64,000 nt of DNA from Oasisia sp. SBJ-2009. Taxonomy: Eukaryota; Annelida; Polychaeta; Sabellida; Siboglinidae. The notes beneath the pieces were generated by a model, which was given only the letters and a program-made list of their open reading frames with translations, had not been told where the DNA came from and made no database searches. Each line of letters starts with the position of its first letter. Within the stretch, counting starts at the first letter, position 1. The stretch lies in NCBI GenBank assembly GCA_964017155.1, contig OZ024864.1, forward strand, positions 36,621,980 to 36,685,979, read 5' to 3'. The translations under genes were made by a program, and so were the position numbers. Positions 7,301-53,966 of the stretch are shown in pieces.

Positions 7301-10300
7301 GCCAATTCTGTGTAGAGGAGTTGGCACTCTCCTGTTAAATTTAGTCTCCCTTGTGTCACCCCCATTGCCTAAAATTCAAGATGTGAGTGTACGTTCTTCT
7401 GCTTGTCAATGGGTCCTTAACAAGCAGACTCGTCTACCAGTCAATGATTTACATCTCTTTTCATTATAGATGTCATGAGCCATGTTCCATATTGAAATGA
7501 TCATATTCGTGTTCTTTCTGTCAGTACCACACGCGGGTAACAGAGCATCTTTCAGTTTTGCCAAATGTCAAAGATTTTGTTCAGATGCAGTTTCCGTTCT
7601 GATGTGTAGTGTTTCCTCACAGATTGTGCGCAGTCCTACAACTCTGGCGGCACCGAGTGTCTCCCCACAGGGGCAGAAGGCCGTAGGGCTCTGGCTGCTC
7701 GGGTGCGCTGGCATGACCTTTGGGGCTATTGTCATAGGCGCCATCACTCGGTGAGTTTACCCGGCCAAGGTATGTTCTCTGGTTCTCTGTGTTCAACATC
7801 TCCAGTTCTCTGTATTCAACACCTCCAGTTCTCTGTGTTCAACACCTCAAGTTCTCTGTATTCAACACCTCAAGTTCTCTGTATTCAACACCTCCAGTTC
7901 TCTGTATTCAACACCGCCAGTTCTCTGTATTCAACACCTCAAGTTCTTTATGTTCAACACCTCCAGTTCTCTGTATTCAACACCTCCAGTTCTCTGTGTT
8001 CAACACCTCCAGTTCTTTATGTTCAACACCCCAGTTCTTTGTATTCAACACCTCAAGTTCTATGTTTTCAACTTCAATACCCAGGTCATTATGTTTAGTG
8101 GCACCTAATCAAAGGGATGTTGTTGTATGTTTTTTTACACTAGCAGAGTCTGGTCTGTCTATAATCCAGTGGCATGTCATCAATGGGATGTTGTTGTATG
8201 TTGTTGTAGACTGACAGAGTCTGGTCTCTCTATGACACAGTGGCATGTCATCAAGGGGATGTTGTTGTATGTTGTTGTATGTTGTTGTAGACTGACAGAG
8301 TCTGGTCTCTCTATGACACAGTGGCATGTCATCAAGGGGATGTTGTTCTATGTTGTTGTATGTTGTTGTACACTGACAGAGTCTGGCCTCTCTATGACAC
8401 AGTGGCATGTCATCAAGGGGATGTTGTTGTATGTTGTTGTATGTTGTTGTAGACTGACAGAGTCTGGTCTCTCTATGACACAGTGGCATGTCATCAAGGG
8501 GATGCGGCCGCCACGCACACAGGAGGAATGGGAGGCTGAGTTTGAACGCTACAAGCAGTTCCCCGAGTACAAATAGTATGTCAATTTGTCATCAACAAAA
8601 CTGGTAAATTATATACACACATACATACACGTACATAGTAGAACTGATTACATCACAGTGACCGTCCTGTGTTGACCGTCTGTGTTGACAGTCTGGGATG
8701 GTCACTGTGAGATTGGTCAGTGTCACTGTGTTGACAGTCTGGGACGGTCACTGTGAGATTGGTCAGTGTCACTGTGTTGACCGTCAGTGTTGACAGTCTG
8801 GGACGGTCACTGTGAGATTGGTCAGTGTCACTGTGTTGACCGTCAGTGTTGACAGTCTGGGACGGTCACTGTGAGATTGGTCAGTGTCACTGTGTTGACC
8901 GTCTATGTTGACAGTCTGGGATGGTCACTGTGAGATTGGTCAGTGTCACTGTGTTGACCGTCAGTGTTGACAGTTTGGGACGGTCACTGTGAGATTGGTC
9001 AGTGTCACCGTGTTGACCATCTGTGTTGACAGTGTGTCACCGTGTTGACCATTTGTGTTGACAGTGTGTCACCGTGTTGACCGTCTGTGTTGACAGTGTG
9101 TCACCGTGTTGACCGTCTGTGTTGACCAGACATGGGGTCAAATACATTTGTATTTGATTTTGAAAGTATTTAAATACTTTTTTTAAAGTATTTGTATTTG
9201 ACATTTAGGAATTGAAAGTATTTGTATTTGTATTTAAATACTTTCCTAAAGTATTTGATATTTCAAATACTTTTTCAAATGTGTATACTACAGTCAGGGA
9301 CTAAGAACTTAATTACACAGCTTAGCACATATGGGCACCAGTAAACCCTGGGCACCAGCTAGCTAGCCAATTCCCTTTGTGTGATTGAGGAAGAAGCCTG
9401 GCACTGGTTTATCAAGCCCTTTGTTCAAGCCAGGTATCCCCAATTAAATAAGCCACAGTGGACTTTGTTCAAACATCACTGAGCCCAGTGTGCAGGGCAG
9501 CCTAATTGATACAGATGATAAATGGAGTACCCAATTCAAGTCAGATCTTGTTAAGTGATCCTCAATGAATGAATGGAAAGCTTGGCTGTGGGTTCTGTCC
9601 ACATTGCCATGATTGTGTGAAAAGGGTGTGGAGGAATGATTAAAAGGAACATTGCATTCAATTAGTTTGCAGCAGGACTTTGCACTATCCCATATAAGTA
9701 CTAACTTCCACCATCCTGGGTGATATAACTGACAATTTTAGAAGTATAAAGGTGGAATATTATTTCACATTATTTAAATATTGAATAACAAACATTAAAA
9801 TTTATATATAATAACTAAATAATTGTAAAGTTAACCAATAACTGTTTTATAGATAAATTATTACTTATTGATAGTACATGTGTTAATCTAATTTTATGCA
9901 GAACTGTTAATTACTCAGTTTTATATATATTTTATTGAAACAATTATTTTCATTTCTAGAGAAAGCATCACGCAGCATATGCTGAAACTCAGGCTTCATC
10001 GTTTTGTTTCTTTTACCTATATAGTAATATATCCTGAAAATGAAAAGTATTTGAAAAAGTATTTGAAATACTTTTCAAAAGTATTTGTATTTGTATTTAA
10101 ATACATTTGCATTTAAAAGTATTTGTATTTGAATCTCTCAAAAGTATTTGTATTTGTATTTAAATACATTTCAATGTATTTGACCCCATGTCTGGTGTTG
10201 ACAGTCTGTGTTGACCGTCTGTGTTGACACTTGACAGTCTGTGTTGACAGTCTGTGTTGCCCGTCTGTGTTGACAGTCTGTGTTGACTGTCTGTGTTGAC

Positions 10301-11253
10301 CGTCTGTGTTGACACTTGACAGTCTGTGTTGCCCGTCTGTGTTGACCGTCTGTGTTGACCGTCTGTGTTGACAGTTTGGGCCGGGAGCTGGACCTGAATG
10401 GATTCAAGAACATCTTCTTCTGGGAGTACACACACCGCATGTGGGGGCGCTCCATCGCCCTTGTCTTTGCCCTGCCCGCCCTCTTCTTCCTCAAGAAGGG
10501 GTGGATCTCCAAACCCATGAAGCCCCGTCTTGCAATCTACTTCTCTCTGCTGGGCTTCCAGGTAATTAACCCTTTACACTGCATTTACTTCTGCCTTGAC
10601 ACCTGAGCCAGTTTATGGTTTACCTTTTTTGTAACTGTTATGTGTATTTGATTGTATTTGCAAATATGTTTTAAATACAGACCAAATATCAAATTCAAAT
10701 ATGATTTTTCTATACAAATACACCAAATGTCTTTATACAACTACATATTTGTCCGCAACGCTGCTGGAACATAAACGGTCAAATTGAGAATAAACGCATT
10801 TGAAATTAGCATATATGTAAGCACATGAGTTTGCACCAAACTCGTCCATTTTCCTTCTATGTCACTGTTTGATGCATTCGAAATACATTCCCAGGTCACT
10901 GTTTATAGCCATATAGTCAGCATCGGGAAAGGTTTTTTTTTTAAAGATAGGCCCCTGTGTTAGGCACTGCCGTTGACTAAAATTATGTCATTGGGGAATT
11001 CCAGTGCCAAATTCAGATAGTAGACAAAAACTAGACATGCTGGGCTTTCCCATAATACCACACTTGTCCGCCATATAGCACGGGATATCCCGAAACATGT
11101 GATTAAACAAGTGCAGTTGATCAGTCTTTTATGGAATTCTAGTCTTTCTAAAAAAAGATACTAAATAGTGAAATCGTCAAATATTAACTTGTCTGTGTTT
11201 AGAAGATGTTTTCTCAAAATCAAATTTATGTATGTGCAACCCATTTTGTTATA

Positions 11254-11326
<73 letters not shown>

Positions 11327-14300
11327 GGACAGTCTAGTGAGACAGTGTTTCTCTCAGGGTCTGCTGGGCTGGTACATGGTCAAGAGTGGTCTAGAGGGTC
11401 AGGACGAAAAGTCGGTCATTCCTCGGGTCAGCCAGTACCGTCTGTCAGCTCACCTCGGGTCAGCTATGGTCCTGTACGTCCTCTTCCTGTGGAGTGGACT
11501 CAACCACCTGCTCAAGGCTCATCAGGTATGTCTCTTGGGGGGTCAGCTCATAAGTGGAACTTTTCTTAAGGATCATGTCAAAAAGTGTTACTTCTCTTAG
11601 GGGTACTCTCACAAGTTTAAATTATCTTAGAGCATCTCAAAAGTTTTACTTCTCTTAGGGATTCTCTCATAATTTCAACTTCTCTTAGGGATCATGTCAA
11701 AAAGTGTTACTTCTCTTAGGGGTACTCTCACAAGTTTAACTTCTCTTAGAGCATCTCAAAAGTTTTACTTCTTTTAGGGATGCTCTCATAAATTCAACTA
11801 CTCTTAGGGATGCTCTCATAAATTCAACTTCTCTTAACGATCATGTCAAAAAGTGTTACTTCTCTTGGGGATTCTCTTTAAGTTGTACATGGTCTTAGAG
11901 ATAGTCTCATAAGTTCTTGGGATTTGTCTCATAAGTCTTATGTCTAAGGGATTGCTGCATAAGTTCAAAGTTGGCATTATTGTATAGATGTATAAATTAT
12001 TGTACAAAATATTATTTTATATGACAGACCAATGTGCAGGCCTGATTATGGATGATTTTGGTGATGACATTACTACATCTTACAAAAATACAATATTAAT
12101 TTTGTTAACAACTGAAAATATCAGAGTGATATGTGGATACCAATGAGTAATTTACTATGTAGCTTGTATTTTAGAATTTTTGTTGGTTTAGCTCTTGGGT
12201 AATTCTATTCACAGCAGAAAATGTGTCAGTTTGTAAGACTTGTTATGATATGTGCTCGTGCAAATTAACCAGGTGTATAAACAGTTTACATCTTGAATCA
12301 TGTAATAGACACGTCATTTTGGGGGAGCAAACTAACAGTGTAGTTGCTGTTGTTAACATGAACATGTTTCAGCTGCCCAACACAGCCCAGATCGCGAGAC
12401 TTCGAATGGGCTCACACGTGGGCATGTCTTTGATCTTCCTCACAGCAATATCAGGTGAGACAGCTGCCTTTCACACCTGTATTTACCTGTAAAACACGAA
12501 TGAATGAAGGAAAGAACAAAAGTTTATTCAACACTGGCAATGTAATATATACAGAACACAAGCACAGAGTGGCGAGCTTCTATTGAAAGGACATGGCTGA
12601 AGTCATACACTTATATGTGTCATTCCCTCCTGAAACTGGAAAAACATAATATAACATGAATTAAAAATAAATTACAAAATAATATACACAGTTCATGTGT
12701 AAACTTGTAGCTGTAGTGTTTTTGCTGCAAATACATTGATTTGGCTAAACATTACTTTCAGTTAACAATTCACAAGTACGTAGAAAGGAAGAACAGCATA
12801 AAAACCTTTTCTAATTATGTTGACTTGGAAGTTGAGTCAGTATATTCGCTAACTTGTTCCATGTGTGTATACATAAAATGTATTTGTGGGCCGGAATCAA
12901 CCTGGCTTGTAATTATTAATTGGGAGTTCACTGAAGTAGGTTCAAACAACAAAGAGTTTTGTTGTTAAATCTTTATACTCGATATATTGTCAGTGTGTTG
13001 GTTATAATCTGTGTGTTTTGTTTATGGGCAAAACGTACAAATTGCAGACAGTGTTTCAACTAAAATTAAATAATTGTTTACTTTTTATTTCTAAGTTTGG
13101 ATTCATATAAATTTCTTATAATTGGTTTCTAACAGTAAATAACTAACAATATCTATGGTGTTGGAAGACCTTTTTTGATCCTTCATTTTTTTACCCGTCC
13201 ACCCATATTTCTATCCATCAATATTCGTTTTTACCCATCCAAATGACGGGTGGACGGGTCTCCGCATAAAGCTATGTGAATTTGTAGATAAAATAAATTG
13301 GTTCTGATGTAATTTGCATGTCACATGATATGGGATGGCCATATTTATCCGACAAATATACAAATGTACTAATCAACATAATGCATATTCAATGGATGAA
13401 TTCCCTCTCAGGGGCATTTGTGGCTGGACTGGACGCTGGTCTGAGCTACAACACGTGGCCCAAGATGGCTGACCGGTGGGTGCCCAGCGACATGTTCCGA
13501 CTGACCCCGAAGTGGAAGAACATTCTCGAGAACTCGGCCATGGTTCAGTTCAACCATCGCCACCTGGTGGGTGCCACTGTCACTACTGCTGTGTATCTCG
13601 TGTAGTCTCGCTTAACCGACTGTCGGTCGGCTGCGGAACTACGCCGAGAAGACAGTCTGGTGACATTTGCCGGCTTTTGTTTGGTATCCGCGTGATCTAT
13701 AAAATGCTGCCACCTCACGGACACTGCCGTAATATTTTTTTTTATAAACAACTGCAAATTTGTATTTCTATTTATTTTGGGTTAATATAAGTTTAATTTT
13801 TAATAGTTTTTATAATACAGCATTATTTGATCAAAAGGTTTCCTTATTTAATTTGTATGCTATCCGTGTCGGGCTAGACAATGCTGCTACCTCACGGATA
13901 CTGGTTAATCCTGCCGTAATTCTTATTTTATAAACAACGGTAAATTTGAATTTTTACTTACTGTTGTGTTAATATAAGTTCAATGGTGAATACTTTTCAA
14001 ATGATATTATTATCTTGTAAAACTATATCGTTATTTAAATTTTTATTTCATAGTTGGCCTGAGAGCCAATCAGCGTCTCTACCCTATTCTGGGGTAAGGC
14101 TGCCCGGATGTAGAAACTTAAGCATATATACTGTCCCAGGCGTAGTTGAGGGGGCTTAAAAGTGCTGCCACCTCACGGAGTCTGGGTAACCGAGGCTATA
14201 TCTCGTGCAGTTTCTTCAGTGTGGAGAAGACTTCACTCCACTCATTTCAGTACCATTGTGTTGTAGGTTACAATGTACAGTGTACAGCTCCTCAAGTGTT

Positions 14301-16034
14301 CAAGTGACACTTGTTGCAAAGATTTGATATCCCTGTTTTTGTGCAAGCCTAATGAAACAGGCATGATGCTGTGTTAGAAATTAAACTGACATGGTGCCAT
14401 ATCAGAAATTAAACTGACATGGTGCCATGTTAGAAGTTAAACTGACATGGTGCCATGTCAGAAATGAGGGAGCTTATTTACAGTGTAATGAAATGCAAAA
14501 GTCACAAACTGTAAACTACTTAGAACATGTTGAACACACACAGCCCCATGTCACTTCACCTTACACCTCACCTTACACCTCACCTTACACCTCACCTTAC
14601 ACCTCACCTTCCACCTCACCTTACACCTCACCTTACACCTCACCTTACACCTCACCTTACACCTCACCTTACACCTCACCTTACACCTCACCTCACCTTA
14701 CACACCAGCACTGTCTGCTTCAAATGTGTGCCATTACCAGACATATGACATGAGTGTTGGTGGTTGCAGGGAGAGTTCACAGGCACAGCCATGCTGGGTC
14801 TGTGGTGGTTATGTCGCAAGGCGCCCCTCCCCCCAAGGGCAATGATGGCAGCCAACGCCCTCGCAGTCATGGCAGTGGTCCAGGTGGGTACAGTGTGCAT
14901 CTCCTCCCCAGCTCCCATCTCAAATCCCTGGCCTCCAGGTCCACTCCCTGACTCCCAGGTCCACTCCCTGGCTCCCAGGTCCACTCCCTGGCTCCCAGGT
15001 CCACTCCCTGACTCCCAGGTCCACTCCCTGACTCCCAGGTCCACTTCCCTGACTCCCAGGTCCACTTCCCTGGCTCCCAGGTCCACTTCCCTGACTCCCA
15101 GGTCCACTTCCCTGGCTCCCAGGTCCACTCACTGGCTCCCAGGTCAATTTCCCTGACTCCCAGGTCCACTTCCCAGCTCCCAGGTCCACTTCCCAGCTCC
15201 CAGGTCCACTTCCCTGACTCCCAGGTCCACTTCCCAGCTCACAGGTCCACTTCCCAGCTCCCAGGTCCACTTCCCTGACTCCCAGGTCCACTTCCCTGAC
15301 TCCCAGGTCCACTTCCCTGACTCCCAGGTCCACTTCCCTGGCTCCCAGGTCCACTTCCCTGGCTCCCAGGTCCACTTCCCTGGCTCCCAGGTCCACTTCC
15401 CTGACTCCCAGGTCCACTTCCCTGACTCCCAGGTGCACTTCCCAAGTCGTCTCCTCTCTAAGAGTTATATATATATATATATATATACATAATTGTACTT
15501 ACATATACAGGGTCTATATATATCCAATACAACATGACAGAGTGTAACGTCCAGTGAAAGTCTCTATAAGTAAAAGAAACATGAATGAAGAAAAGACATG
15601 AAAACTGTTGATCCACGTTTGCTAGTGTTTACTCAAAATGGAAGGCATTTTGTTTTTACCCGTGGAAACGAGGGGTCTGGCTGAAAAAGTTCTTTTTTAA
15701 TAAACCCATTTTATACATTGAAAAGAAAAAATTAACTGATTGCAGAAATAAAACAAGTCACCCTTCCGTGTCCGGCCTGAATATCCCAGTTCAAGAAAAA
15801 CGTAACTACTGTGTATTTAATGTAATGATTACCAAAGTCTGTCACATTATCAGTACTTTGGGTGAGCAAGGTATGTTACACATGATGTTCCGTCTGTTTC
15901 AGGTTGGTCTTGGTATTGCCACACTGTTAGCATTCGTCCCTGTCCATCTTGCCGCCACACACCAGAGTGGAGCTATCATGCTGCTCAGCTGTGCCCTGTG
16001 GCTCGGAAACGAACTCAAGAAAATGCCAAAGTGA
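4364..16034 (+). CDS. COX15: COX15, mitochondrial haem A synthase (complete, 9 exons)
   Basis: Exons: 4364-4456, 7623-7750, 8453-8575, 10375-10561, 11358-11525, 12373-12454, 13412-13566, 14770-14883, 15903-16034. All junctions are GT-AG and phase-consistent; the sum is 1182 nt, 393 residues plus stop, close to human COX15 (about 410). COX15 acts in the inner mitochondrial membrane, oxidising the C8 methyl of haem O to the formyl of haem A for cytochrome c oxidase. Exon 1 gives a Ser/Arg-rich, acid-free N terminus typical of a mitochondrial presequence. The four conserved haem-ligand histidine contexts are present: QWHVIKGM (His86), EYTHRMWGR (His135), QFNHR (His309) and ATHQSG (His370). Several hydrophobic segments fit an eight-helix membrane protein. 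Exon 1 is assigned from its presequence character and phase, not similarity, and is the least certain exon. Exons 3 and 4 have tandem copies of their own acceptors upstream. Confidence 0.96.
5172..5884. repeat. Decayed TATTTGAATTG-rich element (candidate)
   Basis: The two ends share a loose inverted similarity (CCTGGATTGGGATCATATAC on the left; on the right the inverse of a CAGGGTTGGGGCCAAATAC-type sequence). Both flanks are rich in TATTTGAATTG, as in the hAT-like element at 9127-10194. A similar patch lies near 10635-10735. The borders are approximate and no target duplication was found. It sits inside COX15 intron 1. Confidence 0.3.
7782..8090 (+). repeat. Minisatellite, ~23 bp unit, COX15 intron 2
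   Basis: About 13 imperfect copies of CTCTGTATTCAACACCTCCAG plus two bases, starting about 30 bp after the donor of COX15 exon 2. Many units contain a CCTCCAG that resembles a 3' splice site. The long reading frames across it are repeat artefacts. Confidence 0.9.
8106..8511 (+). repeat. 81 bp array duplicating the acceptor and start of COX15 exon 3
   Basis: Four upstream copies (the first decayed) plus the true exon start. Each unit carries a TTGTTGTATG-rich stretch, then GTTGTTGTAG, then the exon start encoding [17 protein letters not shown]. The true acceptor is at 8451-8452. Earlier copies lie at about 8143, 8212, 8292 and 8373; the one near 8373 has TAC instead of TAG, so it lacks the AG. 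The full unit is 81 bp (27 codons) and reads openly in the exon's own frame. Confidence 0.93.
8650..9126 (+). repeat. GTGTTGACAG minisatellite, left half (COX15 intron 3)
   Basis: About five 62 bp units built from GTGTTGACCGTC, GTGTTGACAGTCTGGGA and CGGTCACTGTGAGATTGG pass into shorter GTGTTGAC units. The same repeat resumes at 10195 after an inserted element. The unit contains GTGTTGACAG followed by TCTGGGACGG, closely matching the real exon 4 acceptor and exon start (GTGTTGACAG, then TTTGGGCCGG). Confidence 0.9.
9127..10194. mobile_element. Non-autonomous hAT-like element, 1.07 kb
   Basis: It begins CAGACATGGGGTCAAATAC and ends with the inverse (...GACCCCATGTCTG). It is flanked on both sides by GTGTTGAC (9119-9126 and 10195-10202), an 8 bp duplication as hAT elements make. 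The flanking array itself consists of GTGTTGAC units, so the duplication is not independent proof. Subterminal regions are dense in GTATTTG and its inverse; no transposase is visible. Confidence 0.8.
10195..10374 (+). repeat. GTGTTGACAG minisatellite, right half, ending at the exon 4 acceptor
   Basis: Units of 14-16 bp (GTCTGTGTTGACAG, GTCTGTGTTGACC, GTCTGTGTTGCCC) run straight into the acceptor of COX15 exon 4. The acceptor AG (10373-10374) is the end of the last GTGTTGACAG unit, so the functional splice site is itself a repeat unit. Confidence 0.9.
11253..11323 (+). repeat. (ACGC)n/(CA)n microsatellite
   Basis: A run of ACGC passes into a pure CA run, ending about 34 bp before the acceptor of COX15 exon 5. 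The overlapping reading frames are artefacts. Confidence 0.95.
11530..11960 (+). repeat. Decayed ~30/60 bp minisatellite, COX15 intron 5
   Basis: Imperfect copies of CTCATAAGTTCAACTTCTCTT alternate with AAAAGTGTTACTTCTCTTAGG, starting right after the exon 5 donor. No coding capacity. Confidence 0.85.
12455..13411. other. COX15 intron 6 with a partial MITE-M copy
   Basis: AT-rich intron. It contains a truncated MITE of the GGACGGGT family at about 13130-13273, ending in GCATAAAGCTA. Nothing else was recognised. Confidence 0.6.
13603..14198 (+). mobile_element. Inverted-repeat DNA element (TAGTCTCGCTTAA family), copy 1
   Basis: The left end is TAGTCTCGCTTAACCGAC and the right end is a decayed inverse, GTAACCGAGGCTA. 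TATCTCGTG directly flanks both sides (13594-13602 and 14199-14207), a 9 bp target-site duplication that fixes the borders. A related copy in inverse orientation occurs near 60845-61026. A 9 bp duplication would fit MULE-type or Merlin-type elements, but no transposase remains, so the superfamily is open. It lies 36 bp after the chosen donor of COX15 exon 7. Confidence 0.82.
14370..14475 (+). repeat. ~30 bp minisatellite (AAACTGACATGGTGCCAT)
   Basis: About four units, each with TTAGAAATTAAACTGACATG followed by GTGCCAT, in COX15 intron 7. Intronic, no other role seen. Confidence 0.85.
14550..14697 (+). repeat. 12 bp minisatellite (CTTACACCTCAC)
   Basis: About 12 nearly perfect 12 bp units end about 70 bp before the acceptor of COX15 exon 8. 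Pyrimidine-rich on the sense strand. Both long reading frames across it are repeat artefacts. Confidence 0.95.
14926..15443 (+). repeat. 21 bp minisatellite (CCAGGTCCACTTCCCTGACTC)
   Basis: About 24 units start roughly 40 bp after the donor of COX15 exon 8. Each unit contains CCCAGGTCC, so a CAG|GT pair recurs every ~21 bp. The long minus-strand frames (GlySerGlyPro-like) are artefacts of a unit length divisible by three. Confidence 0.95.
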
Positions 16035-24415: not shown

Positions 24416-27400
24416 GTTTGTGAGGACGGTGTCTAATAGTAATAGTTTATTTCGCTCTGGGCAATCATACAGATTGAAATACGTACATAAAACATGCAAA
24501 ATATATTTGTTAAAATAGATTGAAATTTAATATAATAATTTAAAACATTAACATAAATATAAAATTAATTAAAATACAGATAATAATTTATATGAAATGT
24601 AACTATAAAGGTAATTTAAGACATTAAAACATATTTTCTGTGATTATTTGACTAAACTTATTTAAAAAAAAATACTTTAAAACATTAAAATAAATAGATC
24701 TAAAGAATAAATTAAGGCTTTACAATATTTTACACATTTCCATCAGCATGCACGAAAGTTTGCTAAGTGTCACTGTGACTTCTTTTGGTTGAAAAGTTAC
24801 CAGTTAATGAAGCAGTTCTTGGTCCTGTTGGTTTTTACTCTTGGTAAAGAATATCGAGTACGGCATCGTGTATTGTATGTTGTAGTCCTTGGTTTTGGTA
24901 GAAGTTTATAATGCAGTTTGTGCTGCAGCTCTTCAATTTGTGTGAAAATGTCTGATCGAAAATAATCAACAACAGTATGCTAAGTTGTCTGGTTGGTGTT
25001 TAAGTTCACTGGCTGTGTGTCATAGTCCACCGTAGGGTGATAGGCATTTATTTTTATCATAATGTATTCTGTGGAGCAACATACATCATAACTAATCAGT
25101 AATAAGTATGTATGAATGCATTACAAGGTTAAAATACACAGTTTAATAATTAGTTTTCTATTCAGATTATTTTGCTCCAATTTTTTTATAATTAATAATT
25201 GCGTCAGCTTAATAGATCAGTTAAATAATCTGTCAGCAAAATTTTTCAAAAAACTGGTAGAACTATGTAAATTATTATTGTTATTGACAAGTCACATATT
25301 ATGAAATATTGATTGTCATACTGAACTGAACCAACCGTTAAGAATTTTTTTTAGTAAAACTTCTAGTGTTTGTGTGGTTAGGTAACATAATTGATGATCA
25401 ATGATTTTACTGTTGTGTTTCTGCAGTCATCATCCAAGAGTTCGAAGCAGCCAGGCACGACTGTTAGATCTGAAATCTCCGAAGTGGGAGGGGCAGAGCA
25501 GTGTGATGGCCCACCAGCAGGGTGCGCCGCTAGCTGGGCCGTCAACTTTGACAACTTGCTTTCATCCAAGAGTGGATTGGCAGCGTTCACTGTGAGTATT
25601 ACATTCACAAACCTCATTTTCACAATGGATTCCCACTGCAAACATTTGAGGGTCCACCGATTTGAAATCCGGACTATCAGTAAGTGTAAAAATGCTAAAA
25701 TGTATTTTGAAGCGTTTGGCCCATAACTATATCTGAAGATGGCCATCCACACATAGAACATATCTATCCAAATGTGATTGAATAAAACATTGACTGCACA
25801 CATTAAAAAAGTATCTTATTGTTTGGTCTGATACAGAGTGAGGTAAGTTCTTGTATATAACGCAGTGTACAATCCGCAGGATTACTCAAAGCACTTTACA
25901 CGTTACTCCTTGGCAGACTTGTCCAATCAAACACCGTCTCGACTTCTCTGTGAACTATCCATACTGTCTATAGCCAGGTACTCATTCATATAGCTGGGTT
26001 AACTGGAGCAATGTAGAGTGAACGAACTAGCCCTAAGGTTTGACACTACAGCACATGATTTGAACATGGCTCTCTTAGTTGAGAGTGCGAAGCTTTATCC
26101 ACTGTGCCACTGCTGTCTCACAGTGACCTACAACGGAAACTTGACCCGCATATGTCACTGTTTCCAGAGAATGTATTTACAGCAGTAAATGTTTTTGTTT
26201 TAGCGACAGGTTATACACGTAGTCACCGAGTTAATCCATTATTATTGCAGGACTTTCTAAAGAAAGAATTCAGTGAAGAGAATATAAACTTCTGGAATCG
26301 ATGTGAACATTACAAGCTGATACAAGACAGTGAACAGGTGGGTTAGGTTGTAGGTTAGCACAACGTAAATAGTTGACTGTAAGAAACGTGTCAATTGCTT
26401 CATTTTCCTGTATATCCGATGTAATGCTGGGTGGCATCTCCCTTGCCTGTTAACTCTTAATAAATAATTTGTTATCAGGCACAAGTGATGCTAGTTAAAA
26501 TAGGTATTGTTTGCACTGCGTAACACAGTTTGACAATAATTCGGGCAGTATGCATTGTCCAGTTTACATCATGATGCGATTAACACATGAAAATGTCTAC
26601 TGTCGTGACAATGAAACTATTGTTTATATCATCGCGTACACATGGCAGAAGTGGGACAATTGAGTGTGTCAACACAGAATGTTGGCCTCAACTTTCATTT
26701 GGCTAAAATTATTAGGAGTTTGACATAAACATCAAATGTTGTCTTTGCAAACTGCATGTTCAAGTAATTGTATGAGAGAGTGGTATAGTAGCACAACTGA
26801 TGGTGGTGTGTGTGTCTCAGAGGTGCAAGGAGGCGCAGGAGATATTCGGCTGTCACTTGGCGGCGAATGCCTCAGACCCAGTGAATGTCGACAGTTTCGC
26901 TCATCAGGAGACACAGCGCGGCCTACAGGGGGCAGCACCACAGCTGTTTGATGCCGCACAGAGACAGGTACACCCACAAGCTGTCTACATAGACCTTCAT
27001 TTAAACCATTAACCATTTCAGTCCTACAGCTCTGATCTGCTGTGACCACTGAGTCCGGCAAAGTAGATAATCTCATTCCAAGTCAAGATTTGAGGACCAA
27101 ATATGCATTTTATGAATAGGGATGTTATATATTGATATATATTGAGTATTGATAACAAATAATCCCACGGTAATGGTCACTTTTGTTGCTAAGTTTGCCA
27201 ACATCGTCGTAGGTTTGAACGTAATCGTCATACGATATGGTTTCTTCACCAAAACTATCAAATAAACCATCCACATTGGAAATTGACAATACTGTGGACT
27301 TATAAATCTACCTGCAGATGAAACATGTTGAGTATACTGTGAATTTGTAGATATTTTAAGTGTCTCGTGAACTTGCAGATCTGCCAGTTGGTGAAATGAC

Positions 27401-30400
27401 GTGTTGATTATACTGTGAATTTGTAGATATTTTAAGTGTGTTGTGAACTTGTAGATCTGCCAGTTGGTGAAACTGTAGATATTTTAAGTGTGTTGTGAAC
27501 TTGTAGATCTACCAGTTGGTGAAACAACGTGTTGATTATACTGTGAATTTGTAGATATTTTAAGTGTGTCGTGAACTTGTACATCTAGCAGTTGATGAAA
27601 CAACATGTTGATTATTCTGTGAAATTGTAGATATTTTAAGTGTGTTGTGAACTTGTAGATCTGCCAGTTGGTGAAACAATGTGTTGATTATACTTTGAAT
27701 TTGTAGATATTTTAAGTGTGTTGTGAACTTGTAGATCTGCCAATTGGTGAAATTGTAGATATTTTAAGTGCGTTGTGAACATGTAGATCTACCAGTTGAT
27801 GAAACAATGTGTTGATTATACTTTGAATTTGTAGATATTTTAAGTGTGTTGTGAACTTGTAGATCTGCCAGTTGGTGAAACAATGTGTTGATTATACTTT
27901 GAATTTGTAGATATTTTAAGTGTGTTTTGAACTTGTAGATCTACCAGTTGATGAAACATGACAGTTACGTTCGCTTCCTCAAGTCGGAACAGTACAAGTC
28001 ATGCATCATGGCGGCGATGGAAGGCAAGCAGCTTCCGTATCCAGGAAACTCGGTTGATGGAAGCACTGTCCCAGACAAGGTAGATGACAGAAAGGTACAC
28101 TATTTGTTTTCAAGTAGATCCTCGCACATTTACCCTTTTGGAATAATATTTATTGCAGGGATAAATGCCATTTTCAAGGCAGACAGGACAAATTGTTGCT
28201 GTTTTGTTTTTCTGGGGTTATGTTAAAGTGGGCAGGCAACGCAGTCATTTCTTGCTGATCTCTTCTTGTTTGTTACTCCCAGTCTATTCACACCAAAGGG
28301 TGAAACACATTTCTTGTATTGTAAAAATTAACTACTTTAACAAGTGGAGATTTTATATAGAGATCTGTGAGTGTATAGACTGGTACATTGCTGGAGGTCA
28401 GCAGATCCAAAATACAAATGTATCACTGAAATGGAAAGGTCATATATATGAAATGAAGCATGAGCCAATTGTTGAAAGGAATTACATTAAAGAACTTCAG
28501 TATTTGCTGCAGCTTACTGGTTGGAACAATAGAACACCAGACACATGCAAGACCGTCGTTCAATAGAACATTAGAACACCAGACTTGCATGAAAAGATCA
28601 TGCTTCAATAGAATATTAGCACATCAGACTCACATGAAAGGATCTTTGTTCAGTAGAGTATTAGAACATCAAACGCATGTGAAAGGACCATGGCTCAATA
28701 GAGGATTAGACCATGAATCTCATGCAAAACGACCATGATTCAATATACTGTCACACTCAAGTAAAAGGATCAATAAAACAGTAGAAAACCTGACTCACAT
28801 GGAAAGGTTCATGGTTTATCCCTTTTTATACCAAATACGCACCGATGCGTAGTTGCCGCATCTTACCAAATACGCATCGGTGCGTATTTACCAACGTGTC
28901 CGCCCATGCGGCCATGTTGTGGCCATATTGAATAAATTAAAATCCCCCACTTCCGTCATATGAAGAGAACGAGGCTACACCACACTTCCTGCAAGGCAGA
29001 CGCCATTTTATTGCGGCAATTTCAGTCGTTTTAAACGTGTTTTTAGACAGTTTTGTTTTGTGTTGTTCGTCGCGGCATTTAAAAATGGCGGACGATGGTG
29101 CTTCAGACAGCGAAGGCAGTGATATTTCGGGAGTTGACAAGTTTATAAACGAGGATTTTGAAGGAGAATTAGCGGGAGAGAATGTCGACCCACTGCCCTG
29201 GATCGAGTGCAGGATGGCGGCGACGAAACCAGACCGCAGTGGATTGACAATTTGTTTCACGAATCCAACGAGTCTGGGAATGATTTATAGGGTTTCCACC
29301 CCGACTGGGTGACTGATCCTCGCCGTTTTCGCCCTGTCAGTGCGCCAGATTGCTCCCTGGATGGCACAGGCCACGAACTATGTCTATGGTTGTAGTGAGT
29401 GCTCTGTGCCTCTGCACCAGAAATGCCTGAGGCTGAGGGCACACATCAACCAGTCGAACATTGGCAGACAGGGTTGTCATGTAAATCGATGGATCGTTCT
29501 GTAGTTCTAGTTGTCGTTTTGTAATAAATTTATTGTTTACACATAGCATACATATTTCTGGAACTCATTTTGTCAGTAGGAGAGATAGTATAGTATTGAC
29601 TGCTGGAAGGAAATAATATGACAATATCCATTGTTGTTACTTGTCATCTTACAAAACTAATATTTTCCGACTGACATACCTGATGAATATTGCTCATAAC
29701 ATTCCTTCTACCCGTCACACAGGTATATTAGCAAAATGTAGCTATTGAATTTTTCTACAACTCTTGTAATTGAAGTTGCTTTCTATTCATGCAAAAAACA
29801 GTAGCAGAGTTATTATTGACTGCTGGAAGGAAATAATATGATAATATCCATACTTGTTACTTGTCATCTTACAAAACTAATATTTTCAGACTGACATACC
29901 TGATGAATATTGCTCATAACATTCCTTCTACCCGTCACACAGGAATAATTCTTATAGCAAAATGTAGCTATTGAATTTTTCTATAACTCTTGCTTTCTAT
30001 TCATGCAAGAAACAGTCGAAAAGTTGTGCTGAAGTTCAGTCATGCATTTTGTAAAAAAAATCAAAAAACTTTCCTCTGATTTCAACTTATAATATCATAG
30101 TTGAATAAACAGTTCTATTTATATGATGCACATCAATAGAAAGCTGCATTTCTTAGCTTTCATTTGATATACAACACTTGTATATATGTTATGTAGTTGC
30201 TGAGAAAATCAAATTTGACACACACCATGTACATTTTTTTCCCATATCCGTTTTTTCTCCCAAATGTGCTGGTAACATGGGTATAATTTCTGGGCGGACG
30301 TCTGGTATAAAAAGGGTTATTAGAACATCAAACTCATGTGGCAGGATGATGTCAGTGTAATTCTTGCTCTCAGTTGACATGTTTCTGTGATGACAATTGC

Positions 30401-33400
30401 ATTTCAGAAAATCAAGAAGAGTAAATCAACAAGCACGGCAGAGGAGGGTGGAGATGAGAGGCGGAGGAGATCCTTGTTGCCATGGGTACGAAGTGAGTCA
30501 TCGGTTCCCATACTTGTTCCACTTGCATGGCAGATGAAAGATTTGACAACACCTTTTGAAGATTATCTTGCATACATTTAGTCTGATTGACTTGTTGATA
30601 TTTTGGCCAGCAATACATAGTTGTTTTTATAGATCTGTGTTACACTCGCTTACACATACACGTGGTGCCACCTAGGGAGTGACTTATCACTCAGTTCGGT
30701 GTCCGAAAAAATGAAATCTAATTTATTTATGTTACTTTTTCCTATACTGTTCAGGATGTCTAACCTGTGTGTTTGTGGTTGTACAGACAGGAGTGAGAAG
30801 ACACTGTCCAGGATGTCTAACCTGTGTGTTTGTGGTTGTACAGACAGGAGTGAGAAGACACTGTCCAGGATGTCTAACCTGTGTGTTTGTGGTTGTACAG
30901 ACAGGAGTGAGAAGAGACTGTCTAAGATGTCTAACCTGTGTGTTTGTGGTTGTACAGACAGGAGTGAGAAGACACTGTCCAGGATGTCTAACCTGTGTGT
31001 TTGTGGTTGTACAGACAGGAGTGAGAAGACACTGTCCAGGATGTCTAACCTGTGTGTTTGTGGTTGTACAGACAGGAGTGAGAAGAGACTGTCTAAGATG
31101 TCTAACCTGTGTGTTTGTGGTTGTACAGACAGGAGTGAGAAGAGACTGTCTAGGATGTCTAACCTGTGTGTTTGTGGTTGTACAGACAGGAGTGAGAAGA
31201 GACTGTCGAGGATGTCTAACCTGTGTGTTTGTGGTTGTACAGACAGGAGTGAGAAGAGACTGTCCAAGATGTCTAACCTGTGGGTTTGTGGTTGTACAGA
31301 CAGGAGTGAGAAGAGACTGTCCATGATGTCTAACCTGTGTGTTTGTGGTTGTACAGACAGGAGTGAGAAGACACTGTCCAGGATGTCTAACCTGTGTGTT
31401 TGTGGTTGTACAGACAGGAGTGAGAAGACACTGTCCAGGATGTCTAACCTGTGTGTTTGTGGTTGTACAGACAGGAGTGAGAAGAGACTGTCTAAGATGT
31501 CTAACCTGTGTGTTTGTGGTTGTACAGACAGGAGTGAGAAGAGACTGTCTAGGATGTCTAACCTGTGTGTTTGTGGTTGTACAGACAGGAGTGAGAAGAG
31601 ACTGTCGAGGATGTCTAACCTGTGTGTTTGTGGTTGTACAGACAGGAGTGAGAAGAGACTGTCCAAGATGTCTAACCTGTGGGTTTGTGGTTGTACAGAC
31701 AGGAGTGAGAAGAGACTGTCCATGATGTCTAACCTGTGTGTTTGTGGTTGTACAGACAGGAGTGAGAAGACACTGTCCATGATGTCTAACCTGTGTGTTT
31801 GTGGTTGTACAGACAGGAGTGAGAAGAGACTGTCCATGATGTCTAACCTGTGTGTTTGTGGTTGTACAGACAGGAGTGAGAAGAGACTGTCGAGGATGTC
31901 TAACCTGTGTGTTTGTGGTTGTACAGACAGGAGTGAGAAGAGACTGTCCATGATGTCTAACCTGTGTGTTTGTGGTTGTACAGACAGGAGTGAGAAGAGA
32001 CTGTCGAGGATGTCTAACCTGTGTGTTTGTGGTTGTACAGACAGGAGTGAGAAGAGACTGTCCATGATGTCTAACCTGTGTGTTTGTGGTTGTACAGACA
32101 GGAGTGAGAAGAGACTGTCGAGGATGTCTAACCTGTGTGTTTGTGGTTGTACAGACAGGAGTGAGAAGAGACTGTCCATGATGTCTAACCTGTGTGTTTG
32201 TGGTTGTACAGACAGGAGTGAGAAGAGACTGTCCAGGATGTCTAACCTGTGTGTTTGTGGTTGTACAGACAGGAGTGAGAAGAGACTGTCCAGGATGTCT
32301 AACCTGTGTGTTTGTGGTTGTACAGACAGGAGTGAGAAGAGACTGTCCAGGATGTCTAACCTGTGTGTTTGTGGTTGTACAGACAGGAGTGAGAAGAGAC
32401 TGTCCAAGATGTCTAACCTGTGTGTTTGTGGTTGTACAGACAGGAGTGAGAAGAGACTGTCCAAGATGTCTAACCTGTGTGTTTGTGGTTGTACAGACAG
32501 GAGTGAGAAGAGACTGTCCAAGATGTCTAACCTGTGTGTTTGTGGTTGTACAGACAGGAGTGAGAAGAGACTGTCGAGGATTGCGACTGACTCAGACCTT
32601 CAGAGGTTTGTGGAGGGCCCCAGACAGGACAGTGTTGATGGCTCCAAGGGTCAGGCAGATCTTGTTGACTTCAGCCAGATGTGTCAGCAGTTGAAGGCTG
32701 CCACACACGTGAGTGATCCTTAAGTCATTACATTTAATCCAGTTGATTGTAGGTTTTCCCTTTAGACCTTAGCCATTTTTTGTGTAAAGCCCCTGGTTCC
32801 TCAGAAAAGTAGGTCAAATTCAAAAAAATTACAGGGGTGTCCATTATTTTAAAGGGCATATACTTATCTTCACATTGGATGTAGATATGCTTTATCATTA
32901 ATTAAAAAGTCAGCAAGTAAACAACAGAACTGTCCCGCAAGTTACACCACTTACAAATACCACAATAATTATACTACAATTATGCCAACCATTGTATTAT
33001 GTCCTAGTTGAGCATACTGTCTTTGTGCAAGAATAGGGGACACCGAGTATGGGACTCGTCTCATTGACGTATTGTGTTTACAAATTGAGCTTGACCGACC
33101 AACTTCCCCGACAACAACGATCTTCGAAATAAAACATCGACTAAAGTCATATATTCGATGCGTGAAATGGCTTGAATAGCAAACACTTTGGCAGACTTCT
33201 TCTGCAGTCAAATGATTCGGACCAGCCGACGCCATTTGCTAACACAAAAAGGGGCAGTTTGAAAAATTGCATCAAACTCTGTAAACTTGAATAACACCGA
33301 TGGCCATAAATACCCACAATGCATTGCTGATATGTTAAACCTTCGGCCGACTTCGATTGAGCTACGCTAGTAACTCGCGTAACCCGAGGGCTACCCGAGT

Positions 33401-36400
33401 CCCAATCGAACAGCCGAGATCACTCGAGCACGTGACCATTTTTGACCTAGATTAGCTACTCGAGGCAATCGCGAGTTTTACAGGATTCACTCGAGTAACT
33501 TACGTAGGCCCCCTACTGCATAAGAAATTTATTAAACATTACGTGACACAATTATTTAAGGACTTAACCCTTTTTATACCAAATACGCACCGATGCGTAG
33601 TTGCCGCATCTTACCAAATATGCATCGGTGCGTATTTACCAACGTGCCATGTTGTGGCCATATTGAATAAATTAAAATCCCCCACTTCCGTCATACGAAG
33701 AGAACGAGGCTACACCACACTTCCTGCAAGGCAGACGCCATTTTATTGTGGCAATTTCAGTGGTTTTAAACGTGTTTTTGGAAAGTTTTGTTTTGTGTTG
33801 TTCGTCGCGGCATTTAAAAATGGCTGACGATGGTGCTTCAGACAGCGAAGGCAGTGATATTTCGGGAGTTGACAAGTTTATAAACGACGATTTTGAAGGA
33901 GAATTAGCGGGAGAGAATGTCGACCCACTGCCCTGGATCGAGTGCAGGATGGCGGCGACGAAACCAGACCGCAGTGGATTGACAATTTGTTTCACGAATC
34001 CAACGAGTCTGGGGATGATTTATAGGCTTTCCACCCCGACTGGGTGACTGATCCTCGCCGCTTTCGCCCTGTCAGTGCGCCAGATTGCTCCCTGGATGGC
34101 ACAGGCCACGAACTATGGTTGTAGTGAGTGCTCTGTGCCTCTGCACCAGAAATGCCTGAGGGCACACATCAACCAGTCGAACATTGGCAGACAGGGTTGT
34201 CATGTAAATCGATGTATCGTTCTGTAGTTCTAGTTGTCGTTTTGTAATAAATTTATTGTTTACACATAGCATACATATTTCTGGAACTCATTTTGTCAGT
34301 AGGAGAGATAGTATTGACTGCTGGAAGGAAATAATATGACAATATCCATTGTTGTTACTTGTCATCTTACAAAACTAATATTTTCCGACTGACATACCTG
34401 ATGAATATTGCTCATAACATTCCTTCTACCCGTCACACAGGTATATTAGCAAAATGTAGCTATTGAATTTTTCTACAACTCTTGTAATTGAAGTTGCTTT
34501 CTATTCATGCAAAAAACAGTAGCAGAGTTATTATTGACTGCTGGAAGGAAATAATATGATAATATCCATACTTGTTACTTGCCATCTTACAATACTAATA
34601 TTTTCGGACTGACATACCTGATGAATATTGCTCATAACATTCCTTCTACCCGTCACACAGGAATAATTCTTATAGCAAAATGTAGCTATTGAATTTTTCT
34701 ATAACTCTTGTAATTGAAGTTGCTTTCTATTCGTGCAAGAAACAGTCGAAAAGTTGTGCTGAAGTTCAGTCATGCATTTTGTAAAAAAAATCAAAAAACT
34801 TTCCTCTGATTTCAACTTATAATATCATAGTTGAATAAACAGTTCTATTTATATGATGCACATCAATGGAAAGCTGCATTTCTTAGCTTTCATTTGATAT
34901 ACAACACTTGTATATATGTTATGTAGTTGCTGAGAAAAGCAAATTTGACACACACCATGTAATTTTTTTTTCCATATCCGTTTTTTCTCCCAATTGTTCT
35001 GGTAACATGGGTATAATTTCTGGGCGGACGTCTGGTATAAAAAGGGTTAAATATGGATTAAAGTCAACACATGCTATGAATTATAATAAAAGTCCAAGAA
35101 GATGAACGTCACAATTTACACACTAAACAACTACCTACTTTACTTTATTTATTTACATAAGGGGTTTATGTCCGTGATAACGATCATCGGTGTTCAGTTG
35201 GATTACGCGCATAGTACTGCGCGCGCAGTTAAATTATCATAAACCGGATACCACGTTGGAGTTAACGCGAGTAACTCGAGTAGCTCAATCGAAGTCGGCC
35301 TTCAAGTTAAATGTGTTTAAAAATTATCCTCCAGAGAGCACCTCTGGAATAGATCAAACCAGGATGCTAATGTATACTTGTTACATCCTAACAGTGGTAT
35401 GGTATTGTCATGGTGTCACCATCTGACTGCAGTATGTTGTCAGGTAACTGTGGAATGGTGTCATTGTTTGCAGGTATGTTGTTAATGCTAACTATAGAAT
35501 GATGGCGTCACATTAGTGTCACTCTCTACCTGTGGTATGTTGTCATAGTGATGCCACTCTCTGTCTGTAATGTTGTCACTGTCAGTTGTGTGTTATTGTC
35601 AGTGTCTGTGGTATCCTGTCACATTACTGTCACCACCATTGGTATCTTGTTGTCACTGTCAGTAGCATGTTGTTGTCACATTGTTGTCATTCTGTGTGGT
35701 ATCTTGTTACATTTTTGTCATTGTCTGTGGCATCTTGTTGTCACCACCATTGATATGTTGTTGTTACTATCAGTAGCATGTTGTCACACTGTTGTCATTC
35801 TGTGTGGTGTCTTGTCACATAGTTGTCACTGTCATTGGTATCTTGTCACATTGTTGTCACCATCATTGGTATGTTTTCAGGTTCTTGTCACTGTTGGTAG
35901 TATGTTGTTGTCATGTTGTTGTTGTTGTGTCATCAGGAGGCGGCGGGTGACGGGGTGACAAAGGAGGTGTTCTGTCGTGTCTGTCTGCCGGGTGACACAA
36001 CCACGGTCATCTCCCCCGTGGCCGGTCAGAGCCTACTCACTGCCCTGGTCAAGGTGTGTGAGCGACGCAAACTCTGTCTCGCCCAGTACGATGTCCAGTA
36101 CCTCGACTCAGACAAGGTGAGTGAGGGACACATAGCTTTATCTAGAGACCTGTCATTTGGACGGGTAAAAACGAACATGGACGGGTAGAAATATGGGTGG
36201 ACGGGTAACAAAATAAAGGAGCAAAAAAAGATCTTCCAAAACCATAGATATTGTTAGTTATGCCTTGAAAGTGAGTGTCAAGGGTGTCATATGTGTGTTA
36301 GTAGCCCATTTTAGGTCATCAGACACATTTTAAAGTTTGTGAACTGGCTTAACAGTTAACATCCATGTGTCCACCAAAACATGTGTGACTGGCAATAATT

Positions 36401-39400: not shown

Positions 39401-42400
39401 TCCTTTTGACGTGATGTCACATGACTTACTGTCTAGATGATGATGTCACATTGTAGTGGAGCAGTGGTGCAATGGTCAACCAAGAGGTCAGCGTCCAGAC
39501 AGTGGACAACCAGCGTCTGCTGGTCAAGTCTCCACAAGATTCCTCAAGTAGGTCACATGTAATTGAGAGATCTAGTATTTCATTACTTACTCAGTCAGTA
39601 CACACTTGACTGCTACATACTCGACCAGCACATATTCCACAAATACATATTCCACAGGTACATACTCTAGCACATATTCCACAAATACATATTCCACAGG
39701 TACATACTCTAGCACATATTCCACAAATACATATTCCACTGGTACATACTCTAGCACATATTCCACAAATACATATTCCACAGGTACATACTCTAGCACA
39801 TATTCCACAAATACATATTCCACTGGTACATACTCTAGCACATATTCCACAAATACATATTCCACTGGTACATACTCTAGCACATATTCCACAAATACAT
39901 ATTCCACTGGTACATACTCTAGCACATATTCCACAAATACATATTCCACAGGTACATACTCTAGCACATATTCCACAAATACATATTCCACTGGTACATA
40001 CTCTAGCACATATTCCACAAATACATATTCCACTGGTACATACTCTAGCACATATTCCACAAATACATATTCCACAGGTACATACTCTAGCACATATTCC
40101 ACAAATACATATTCCACTGGTACATACTCTAGCACATATTCCACAAATACATATTCCACAGGTACATACTCTAGCACATATTCCACAAATACATATTCCA
40201 CTGGTACATACTCTAGCACATATTCCACAAATACATATTCCACTGGTACATACTCTAGCACATATTCCACAAATACATATTCCACAGGTACATACTCTAC
40301 CAGCACATATTCCACAAATACATATTCCACTGGTACATACTCTAGCACATATATGCCACAAATTCATATTCCACTGGTACATGCTCTACCAGCACATACT
40401 CGATCGATACCCAATCAGTACATACTCAACCAGTAGAGTTGGTTGTCACATGGGTTGGTTGTTACACAGCCTCTGGTGTTTCTCCAAGATGTCAGTCACT
40501 GTAGTGACCGTTATTTTAAATTGCTCAACTGAATATTAATGTATTGGCGATGTATTTTCTTTTTATGTCATCAGTCAAATCTTTTACTTTACAAGTTACT
40601 ATTTATTTATAGCATTGCGTAGTGTTTAGTTGTGCTTGATGAAATTGTCATGTCAAGTGATCTTTCACGTGTATAATATCAAACGTATTTGCACAACAAG
40701 TGTGACTTAAGAGAATGGTATTTTGTGCCAAATTTTGATGCAGGGACAGATTGTCACAAAGCTGTTGAGGCTGGTTTTTACATGACTTATTGTAACAAGT
40801 AGTAGTGATCATATTTATGTGAATTCTCAACAAAAAACTTTTAGTTAATTTCATTCTTTGAATATATATTATATACGTACCTCTTTGTATTGCATTTGTT
40901 TTGAGTCATTTGCAATATTTTTACATATTCAGTGATGCACCCTCAAGTATATTTCAGTACATAACTTTTTATTGTGTATTTGTTTCATAAATTTTACTTT
41001 ATTTCCCATAATAACAATTAAGGACAACCAGCCCCATAATTTGTCAAAACAAACCCGGCTAAGGGGCGGTTGCCACAAGAGACCCTATTTTGAATGCCAA
41101 AACTCATATTTTGAATAAGGCTACATCAACAATATTAACACCCAAACATTCATTGTAGATTAAAAGGTAACCTTAATAACAGCAGAGACAGAGAAATGTT
41201 GCTACAACAAAGAAAATAAGAAACATCCCCACAATATAACAACCATCCCCAATCTCCCCTATATACTCAAATAGTTCATACTCGAATGGTAATATTTGAC
41301 CTGTACGTACTCGATTAATACCCTGTGTGGAGGTACAGTTTATTATGAGCATACTGTTCCTTTACATGATGACAGGAACATCACATGTAACTTTGACGAA
41401 CCTGTATTCATTGTCATGTACTCAAGTGCAGATGAACATTTCCATGTTTTACAACTGACTGACTGTGACTACAGAGATTATGGTTGACAAGTTTGAATTA
41501 ATTGGGTGAAACAGGTGTATGGAAACGTTGCGCCCTGCAAGCTGCTGTCATCTGTTGACATAGACAAAATAACTAGAAATGGATTTATAATAATCACTTC
41601 TTTTGCGCCAATATCCTCGAAGATCAAGCTCAGTGGCGCGGCAAAACCAAGGGATTAAGCAAACTCGTAATCGAAAACAATGCGTGAGTCGTCAATGGAT
41701 GGATGAAGAAGCTAGGAGGCTAAGGAGGATAGGCAGCATTAAAGAGATAGGTTTTTAGGCGTCGGCGGAATGAAACTATATTACTTTCTGATTTAACACT
41801 GACAGGAAGCGAATTCCACACCGTTGGTGCGGCAACTGAGAAAGCTCGGGTTCCGGCTTTTGTTTTCACCCGAGGGATGTAAAGAGGGTTACTAGTGGTT
41901 GAGCGTAGCTGCCTGGAATTTCTTGCTGGAGTTAGCATTGAATTTAGATATGCTGGTTGTGTAGATGACAGTGCTTGATAGACTATTGTACACATTTTGA
42001 AAATGATGCGATAGTGCACAGGGACCCAGTGCAATGATTTTATCTCATCCAGATGTCTCAGACACTGTAGCGCATGTCAGTAACCAGGCTATCATGTTTT
42101 CCAGAGTCGACAGGTGGCAGCACCAACAATGCGATGAAGCCACCGATTGGCCGCAGTAGAGTGGACAGTGGCAGTGGCCGGAGTGGGGATGGTGTCCAGT
42201 GGCTGGCTACTCACACCCAGCTGTTCAAGGACATCAGACCTGGCAGTCCAATGCTGCACTTTGACGAAACAGGAGTGTGGGACCCCAACAGGAAGGTGGG
42301 CCCGTCACTCCTTGCGTTGACATTGCTGACCAGAGCTATTAGACATCACTGGCAAACAGCCCGTCACCAAGTTGGTGCTGTGCATACACACACACACTCA

Positions 42401-48955: not shown

Positions 48956-50273
48956 AAATACACTGCAGTATACACATGAACTATGAAGTGTTGCTATCTT
49001 TGTACAGAGGGTGGTACCCCAATGTCTAGTAGCTCTACGCCCCTGTCCAGTGTAGTATACACGTGAACTATGAAGTGTTGCTATCTTTGTACAGAGGGTG
49101 GTACCCCAAAATCTAGTGACTCTACGCCCCTGTCCAGTGTAGTATACACGTGAACTATGAAGTGTTGCTACCTTTGTACAGAGAGGGTGGTACCCCAAAG
49201 TCTAGTAGCTCTATGCCCCTGTCCAGTGTAGTATACACATGAACTATGAAGTGTTGCTATCTTTGTACAGAGGGTGGTACCCCAAAGTCTAGTAGCTCTA
49301 CGCCCCTGTCCAGTGTAGTATACACGTGAACCATGAAGTGTTGCTATCTTTGTACAGAGGGTGGTACCCCAAAGTCTAGTAGCTCTACGCCCCTGTCCAG
49401 TGTAGTATACACGTGAACTATGAAGTGTTGCTGTCTTTGTACAGAGGGTGGTACCCCAAAGTCTAGTAGCTCTACGCCCCTGTCCAGTGTAGTATACACG
49501 TGAACTATGAAGTGTTGCTATCTTTGTACAGAGGGTGGTACCCCAAAGTCTAGTAGCTCTACGCCCCTGTCCAGTGTAGTATACACATGAACTATGAAGT
49601 GTTGCTGTCTTTGTACAGAGGGTGGTACCCCAAAGTCTAGTAGCTCTACGCCCCTGTCCAGTGTAGTATACACGTGAACTATGAAGTGTTGCTATCTTTG
49701 TACAGAGGGTGGTACCCCAAAGTCTAGTAGCTCTACGCCCCTGTCCAGTGTAGTATACACATGAACTATGAAGTGTTGCTGTCTTTGTACAGAGGGTGGT
49801 ACCCCAAAGTCTAGTAGCTCTACGCCCCTGTCCAGTGTAGTATACACGTGAACTATGAAGTGTTGCTATCTTTGTACAGAGGGTGGTACCCCAAAGTCTA
49901 GTAGCTCTACGCCCTTGTCCAGTGTAGTATACACATGAACTATGAAGTGTTGCTGTCTTTGTACAGAGGGTGGTACCCCAAAGTCTAGTAGCTCTACGCC
50001 CCTGTCCAGTGTAGTATACACATGAACTATGAAGTGTTGCTGTCTTTGTACAGAGGGTGGTACCCCAAAGTCTAGTAGCTCTACGCCCCTGTCCAGTGTA
50101 GTATACACGTGAACTATGAAGTGTTGCTATCTTTGTACAGAGGGTGGTACCCCAAAGTCTAGTAGCTCTACGCCCCTGTCCAGTGTAGTATACACGTGAA
50201 CTATGAAGTGTTGCTATCTTTGTACAGAGGGTGGTACCCCAAAGTCTAGTAGCTCTACGCCCCTGTCCAGGGC
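48956..50273 (-). repeat. 87 bp array, 15 units, derived from the end of the FBXW4-like exon
   Basis: On the minus strand each unit contains the codons for DRGVELLDFGVPPSVQR, then TAG or CAG, then CAACACTTCATAGTTCA and GTGTATACTACACTG. The unit at the right end belongs to the real exon. Units with GCTATC on the plus strand keep the stop; units with GCTGTC have lost it. The 435-residue frame in another phase is an artefact of 87 = 3 x 29. Confidence 0.93.
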
Positions 50274-53288: not shown

Positions 53289-53966
53289 AAGGGATTTCCA
53301 GGACGGGGAGTCCATTCCTGGAGTTATTTTTTGGATACGGTGTCAAGTCAAGGGAAAATCAAAGGTCAAGTTTACTTGTGCAACCTTTAGCATTTCTCAG
53401 TATTCGAGATGCATGTATATATTAAGGAAATAAAACATATGTGAATTTAAATTTATTTATCAGCCTTTTCGATATGCATGTATATTTATAACAAAGAAAT
53501 AAAGAGTATATTTATTCGTCATCGACACTTGGCCCCCCTTCATCGTCTTCGATATCCATCTACTTGCTGATGAAAGGACTACAGCTGATGTCTCCTCCCT
53601 CGCATTTGCAGTAGTCCGTGCATAAAAGGCCTGCGCTGTTGCAGCTGCAGCGTGTGCTACTGCATGCCTTGTACTCTGCAGTGCAGCTACAGCTAACGAC
53701 ATCCAGTAGTGCTTGGGGAGCAACTGGCGCTGTTGAGATGGCCGGAGTGATGGCGGAGCCTTCGATGTTCCAACCAAAGTTGGCAATATTTCGAGCTTCT
53801 TCAGGTGGATCACGTTGGTCCGCGGCCTTCCACAGTAGCATCTGAAGATGAGCTCGGAGCACATGCAGCTGCAGGTTGGCATCAGTTGGTGGAAGTTTCT
53901 TCAGTGGCGGAGGTTTCTTATATCCACGGTAGAAGTGAGCACGTGCGTCATTCATTGTTGTACATC
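53289..53966 (+). repeat. Left inverted arm
   Basis: Inverse match of 55772-56466. A short extra piece just outside (about 53164-53200, GTGCAACCTTGAGCATTTCT) repeats text from within the arm, and a small hairpin (TTCAAGATGGC/GCCATCTTGAA) lies at about 53196-53228. Confidence 0.85.

Follow-up and report, generated by a model that had tools for sequence, protein, structure and literature searches.

The window analysed here, that is, the whole 64-kb stretch of DNA, contains COX15 (modelled exons 7623–16033) and then, on the plus strand from 22247, RGS12, in which a 57-bp minisatellite of 32 copies (30746–32581, plus strand) lies across the boundary between intron 6 and exon 7. We interpret this array as a splice-boundary minisatellite (a "mirage") in an annelid, the mRNA of which would mostly join exon 6 to the last copy (exon start 32554), and we assign this reading a probability of about three in four.

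The identification of the gene as RGS12 made in a preliminary description was upheld by homologues, exon-wise matches, and RGS and RBD domains, which lie on separate exons and score above the Pfam cut-offs; below cut-off, Pfam also matched another RBD and a GoLoco motif. The first modelled exon is 95% identical to an ENA protein, and the closest relative with a name, at 78% identity across 61% of the query, is the RGS12 protein of Lamellibrachia satsuma, a siboglinid tubeworm; that protein stops before the exon 6–7 junction and is therefore silent on the repeat. The DNA thus looks like that of a deep-sea tubeworm, and an origin in amphioxus, to which the literature on mirages had pointed, was rejected because of this siboglinid match. 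Exon 6 (30408–30492, plus strand) encodes ...RRRRSLLPWVR and ends in phase 1 at the donor GAA/GTGAGT (CGA A/GTGAGT), as previously described, and the phases fit. Exon 7 (32554–32708, plus strand), whose start was placed by homology and splice consensus, runs from the last acceptor TTGTACAG/ACAGG to the donor CAC/GTGAGT, its first 28 nt falling within the array. Exon 5 was placed by a tblastn match, Pfam giving no family for its frame, and the region matches the RGS domain of homologues. Exons 10–12 are supported by open frames and splice consensus, and exon 13 (50228) is putative; the joined model has stops from exon 10 onward, probably because an exon lying between 38496 and 42105 is missing and the phases after it are wrong. 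For COX15, the junctions were placed using human COX15, splice consensus, and Pfam matches, and the start of exon 6 (about 14800) is approximate.

Several other features occur in the window. Two segments that are nearly identical and contain an open frame of 123 aa (28937–29312 and 33672–34047), which look like a dispersed element, stand on either side of the exon 6–7 region. Farther downstream, two similar open frames in opposite orientation (53460–54099 and 55777–56233) bound a stretch with long open frames, and this pair is like a transposon or an inverted duplication. The minus strand at 62288–63409 encodes five C2H2 zinc fingers (Pfam), in a protein presumably resembling the glass family. 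A 42-bp array of 18 copies (39627–40388) is open in several frames and lies away from modelled junctions, and in COX15 a 23-bp array (7782–8072) lies about 30 nt past the exon 1 donor, while a 30-bp array (11547–11877) begins about 20 nt past the exon 4 donor.

The 57-bp array was reported by TRF with a period of 57, 32.2 copies, 97% match, and 0% indels. It had been placed at 30753–32708 in the preliminary description; the 32-unit array indeed exists, but its limits are 30746 and 32581, and the remainder is single-copy exon. Each unit, of minisatellite size, spans the intron/exon boundary (given the exon 7 start set by homology and splice consensus) and consists of 29 nt of intron end plus 28 nt of exon start, confirming the approximate division described earlier, so that 32 acceptors follow one another at a spacing of exactly 57 bp (exon starts 30787, 30844 ... 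32554). The intron part carries CTAAC (A at −24), a candidate branch point by the yTnAy consensus, a tract rich in TG (T+G making up 94% of 17 nt), and TACAG. Variation is confined to 4 of the 57 columns, of which one belongs to the intron part and the other three to the exon part, and there are 9 distinct units; since the sole change in the intron part is a T to G at −17 in two of the 32 units, the last copy is marked only by its position and by exon-part variants, a circumstance that speaks against the last-copy reading.

A block of seven units (exon starts 30958–31300) recurs unchanged immediately downstream (31357–31699), and two units alternate from 31813 to 32155, which points to growth by multi-unit duplication. 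Such ordered variation with multi-unit blocks, together with the arrays of other units at other junctions, argues against the view that the copy number or the entire array is an artefact of assembly, which we regard as very unlikely even though long near-identical arrays are frequently misassembled; the exact number of 32 may nevertheless be wrong. At the left end of the array, ACTGTTCAGGAT (30746–30757, plus strand) matches the exon sequence ACTGTCGAGGAT (32570–32581) at 10 of 12 positions, and this likeness of the two ends may possibly reflect the seed of the first duplication. A dispersed element as the source of the unit was set aside, because no ungapped match on the plus strand in the rest of the window exceeded 31 of 57 positions. 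The 30-base array pattern, searched in bacterial, archaeal, and viral contigs, gave no match.

Acceptor strength was evaluated with a small matrix built from the 16 other modelled acceptors. Thirty units scored 8.6 and two scored 9.5; leave-one-out scoring placed three of the 16 modelled acceptors above 8.6. Among the 2275 AGs in the region, 63 (2.8%) reached the unit score, 32 of which belong to the array itself; among the 2064 AGs lying outside it, 31 matched or beat that score. Every copy looks like an acceptor because each holds a branch-point-like motif, a tract, and an AG, and the earlier claim to this effect is borne out by the retention of CTAAC and TACAG in 32/32 units and by their similar scores; all 31 acceptors upstream of the last are intact. 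An alternative acceptor at the left edge (ACTGTTCAG/GAT, 30755–30757, plus strand) was rejected, as it scores lower (4.3), is out of frame from exon 6, and leads to 8 stops before the end of exon 7. Directly downstream of the acceptor, every unit also has GTGAGA (GGA/GTGAGA), which might in principle serve as a per-unit donor, so that the array would be spliced in steps or as micro-exons. This is hardly credible, since the donor score is 0.1, a background value equalled or exceeded by 50% of all GTs in the region, whereas 15 of the 16 modelled donors score at least 4.0; the donor within the unit was accordingly set aside.

We then consider the coding potential of the units. Splicing exon 6 to any of the 32 acceptors would keep the frame and introduce no stop, in agreement with the previous statement that 57 bp corresponds to 19 codons open in the exon frame. 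Joining to the first acceptor, just 294 nt from the exon 6 donor, adds 31 units or 589 residues, as calculated earlier, giving 669 instead of 80 aa for exons 6 and 7 together. The 19-residue unit RMSNLCVCGCTDRSEKRLS contains three Cys, a number that falls to two in the pair of units carrying TGG, so that the four Cys per unit described before is incorrect. In-frame extension by upstream units is possible on the sequence, and if upstream acceptors were used at useful levels, RGS12 isoforms would carry 1–31 extra 19-residue, mostly three-Cys repeats in the linker between RGS and RBD, with a length set by copy number. The intact, in-phase, stop-free, and nearly equal acceptors, as well as the proximity of the first one to exon 6, speak for such functional use. 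However, an array with a period divisible by three and an open exon frame is expected with a chance of about 0.10, and of the six arrays that the window has on an acceptor or close to one (COX15 exons 2 and 3; RGS12 exons 5, 7, 8, and putative 13), two have both properties (p about 0.12); openness is hence weak evidence of coding use. Nor did the unit variants reveal the synonymous bias looked for as a sign of coding constraint: the minimum state changes among units are 2 synonymous and 4 non-synonymous, a count of few events, with 37 of the 171 possible single changes in the unit being synonymous.

Comparison with homologues favoured the last acceptor. With exon 6 joined at 32554, the linker reads RRRSLLPWVRNRSEKRLS and can be aligned with 14 of the 17 RGS12/loco and related proteins chosen from 144 fetched ones; the RRRSLLPW motif encoded by exon 6 is common to 14 of the 17, the proteins without it being P0067, P0132, and P0136, and the linker motif is present in 24 of the 144. 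In contrast, the repeat is absent from all 17 aligned homologues, and the unit words CVCGC, NLCVC, and CTDRSE are absent from all 144 fetched proteins. A protein search with the open reading frame of the array found no similar protein among the 7999 candidates scored.

RGS12 itself provides a second case at exon 5, where an array with steps of 52 and 76 bp (27322–27958, plus strand) spans the acceptor (27939) and likewise consists of intron end and exon start. Six of its seven upstream copies keep the AG, and all seven would bring 5 to 20 stops, so that, if the gene works, upstream acceptors are already passed over there; RGS12 thus probably skips the upstream copies at exon 5. The acceptor of exon 5 is nevertheless weaker than the exon 7 unit (3.2 vs 8.6), and skipping there may not apply to exon 7. 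Opposing evidence comes from COX15 exon 2, where an 81-bp array (8097–8504, plus strand) spans the acceptor (8453). Its three regular upstream units are in frame and stop-free, and two of the four upstream copies, both in frame and open, keep the AG, which is lost in one regular upstream unit and in the older first copy; the in-frame, open state of this array counts against the last-copy reading. Collectively, the linker alignment, the exon 5 array, and the RT-PCR of amphioxus mirages mentioned below favour the use of the last acceptor. The proposal that the units form a length-variable coding segment is left unsupported by the homologues, the unit variants, and the probable skipping at exon 5. 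We regard it as unlikely, and the same holds for the wider idea that, in a lineage with minisatellites recurring at acceptors, splicing varies between the copies at RGS12 exon 7 and possibly COX15 exon 2, both with open arrays of a period divisible by three, linker length following repeat number.

A softer form of upstream use, overlapping with the preferred last-copy reading, is occasional joining to upstream acceptors as a splicing error that adds a few units without function. Some leakage to upstream acceptors is plausible, and predicted from their equal strength, and human boundary tandem repeats can cause alternative splicing (PMC2812944); amphioxus mirages are in turn reported not to disturb regular splicing (PMC3087553), and we hold error use to be possible but doubtful.

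The recurrence of arrays at acceptors was evaluated by permutation over 14 hand-merged TRF arrays (period at least 10, best score at least 100) within the spans of COX15 and RGS12, the set omitting weaker rows, microsatellites, the arrays at 46964 and 48967, and putative exon 13. In these two genes, acceptors are crossed by 4 of the 14 arrays, where random placement would yield 0.72 (p = 0.0046); the four are those at COX15 exons 2 and 3 and at RGS12 exons 5 and 7. The crossing at COX15 exon 3 is by a 13-bp array (10190–10375, plus strand) that extends a single base into the exon (10375) and drops out under a minimum of 10 exon bases, giving 3 of 14 against 0.61 expected (p = 0.021). Five of the 14 arrays come within 6 nt of an acceptor (p = 0.0005), a value relying on a score-50 row at 35872–35933, without which the count is four (p = 0.0055). 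This row belongs to a 31/108-bp array (35628–35933, plus strand) near RGS12 exon 8 (35937); the final 41 nt of the array, a weak 11-bp TRF row of score 50, were merged in. Donors of the same two genes are crossed by none of the 14 arrays, 0.71 being expected. An 87-bp array of 15 acceptor-like units (CTTTGTACAG/AGGGTGG, 48967–50270, plus strand) is a candidate member of RGS12, and its unit, as read from the sequence, has stops in all three frames. Several of the array-bearing intron ends are TG-rich, which suggests the hypothesis that a slippage-prone TG-rich tract seeds the arrays. This recurrence at acceptors is more interesting than the RGS12 exon 7 array itself; should the bias extend across whole tubeworm genomes, minisatellites would repeatedly originate at acceptors in a lineage remote from chordates.

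Presumably, the array began as a minisatellite that formed over the junction of intron 6 and exon 7 of RGS12, in a siboglinid tubeworm or a closely related animal. Slippage or unequal exchange would have produced it, and it would have expanded to 32 copies through duplication of single and multiple units. Exon 6 would then be joined mostly to the last copy, chosen, perhaps, through exon definition set up by the donor at 32708, so that the conserved linker is preserved and the other 31 units are removed as intron. With 32 near-equal acceptors in series, the array is a natural experiment on the choice of the spliceosome among identical sites, and it also serves as a warning for annotation, because exons bearing such arrays can be wrongly extended.

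Among the titles and abstracts searched (annelid, siboglinid, and invertebrate; most subscription journals lay outside), there was no report of splice-boundary minisatellites in annelids. The available text of the Ridgeia genome paper (PMC9921365) makes no mention of splice-site repeats, and that of the earthworm metallothionein paper describes tandem repeats within intron 1 and exon 4 duplications missing from the transcript, with no mention of junction-spanning repeats (PMC12783039). Internal tandem repeats at exon boundaries in human segmental duplications, with a mean of four 30-bp units and RNA support, share with the RGS12 array the minisatellite at an exon–intron boundary, and can alter splicing (PMC2812944). 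The tandem duplication of splice-signal DNA also recalls intron gain by tandem AG/GT duplication (discussed in PMC3087553); unlike there, no new intron position appears in RGS12, where the beginning of exon 7 agrees with the conserved linker and the possible donor in the unit has background strength.

The closest likeness is to the mirages of amphioxus. These occur in Adh3, TnC, and the globin genes BflGb6 and BflGb9, with the PGBD5 repeats likened to them, have units of 10–160 bp in several genes per genome, and number 6 and 3 copies in two haplotypes of BflGb6 (PMC3087553, PMC3902484), while regular splicing was undisturbed by RT-PCR (PMC3087553). Length variation and RT-PCR results thus exist for the amphioxus mirages, whereas the RGS12 array is known from one sequence. 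It further differs in having 32 copies and a unit that is in frame and stop-free, in crossings at acceptors only rather than at both boundaries, and in its host, an annelid whose nearest named relative is L. satsuma, and not a cephalochordate, where the name was given. As in amphioxus, however, the unit spans the intron/exon boundary, its copies carry a splice signal, its length is that of a minisatellite, and several genes are concerned. Judged by its structure, the RGS12 array is a mirage, carried here by an annelid.
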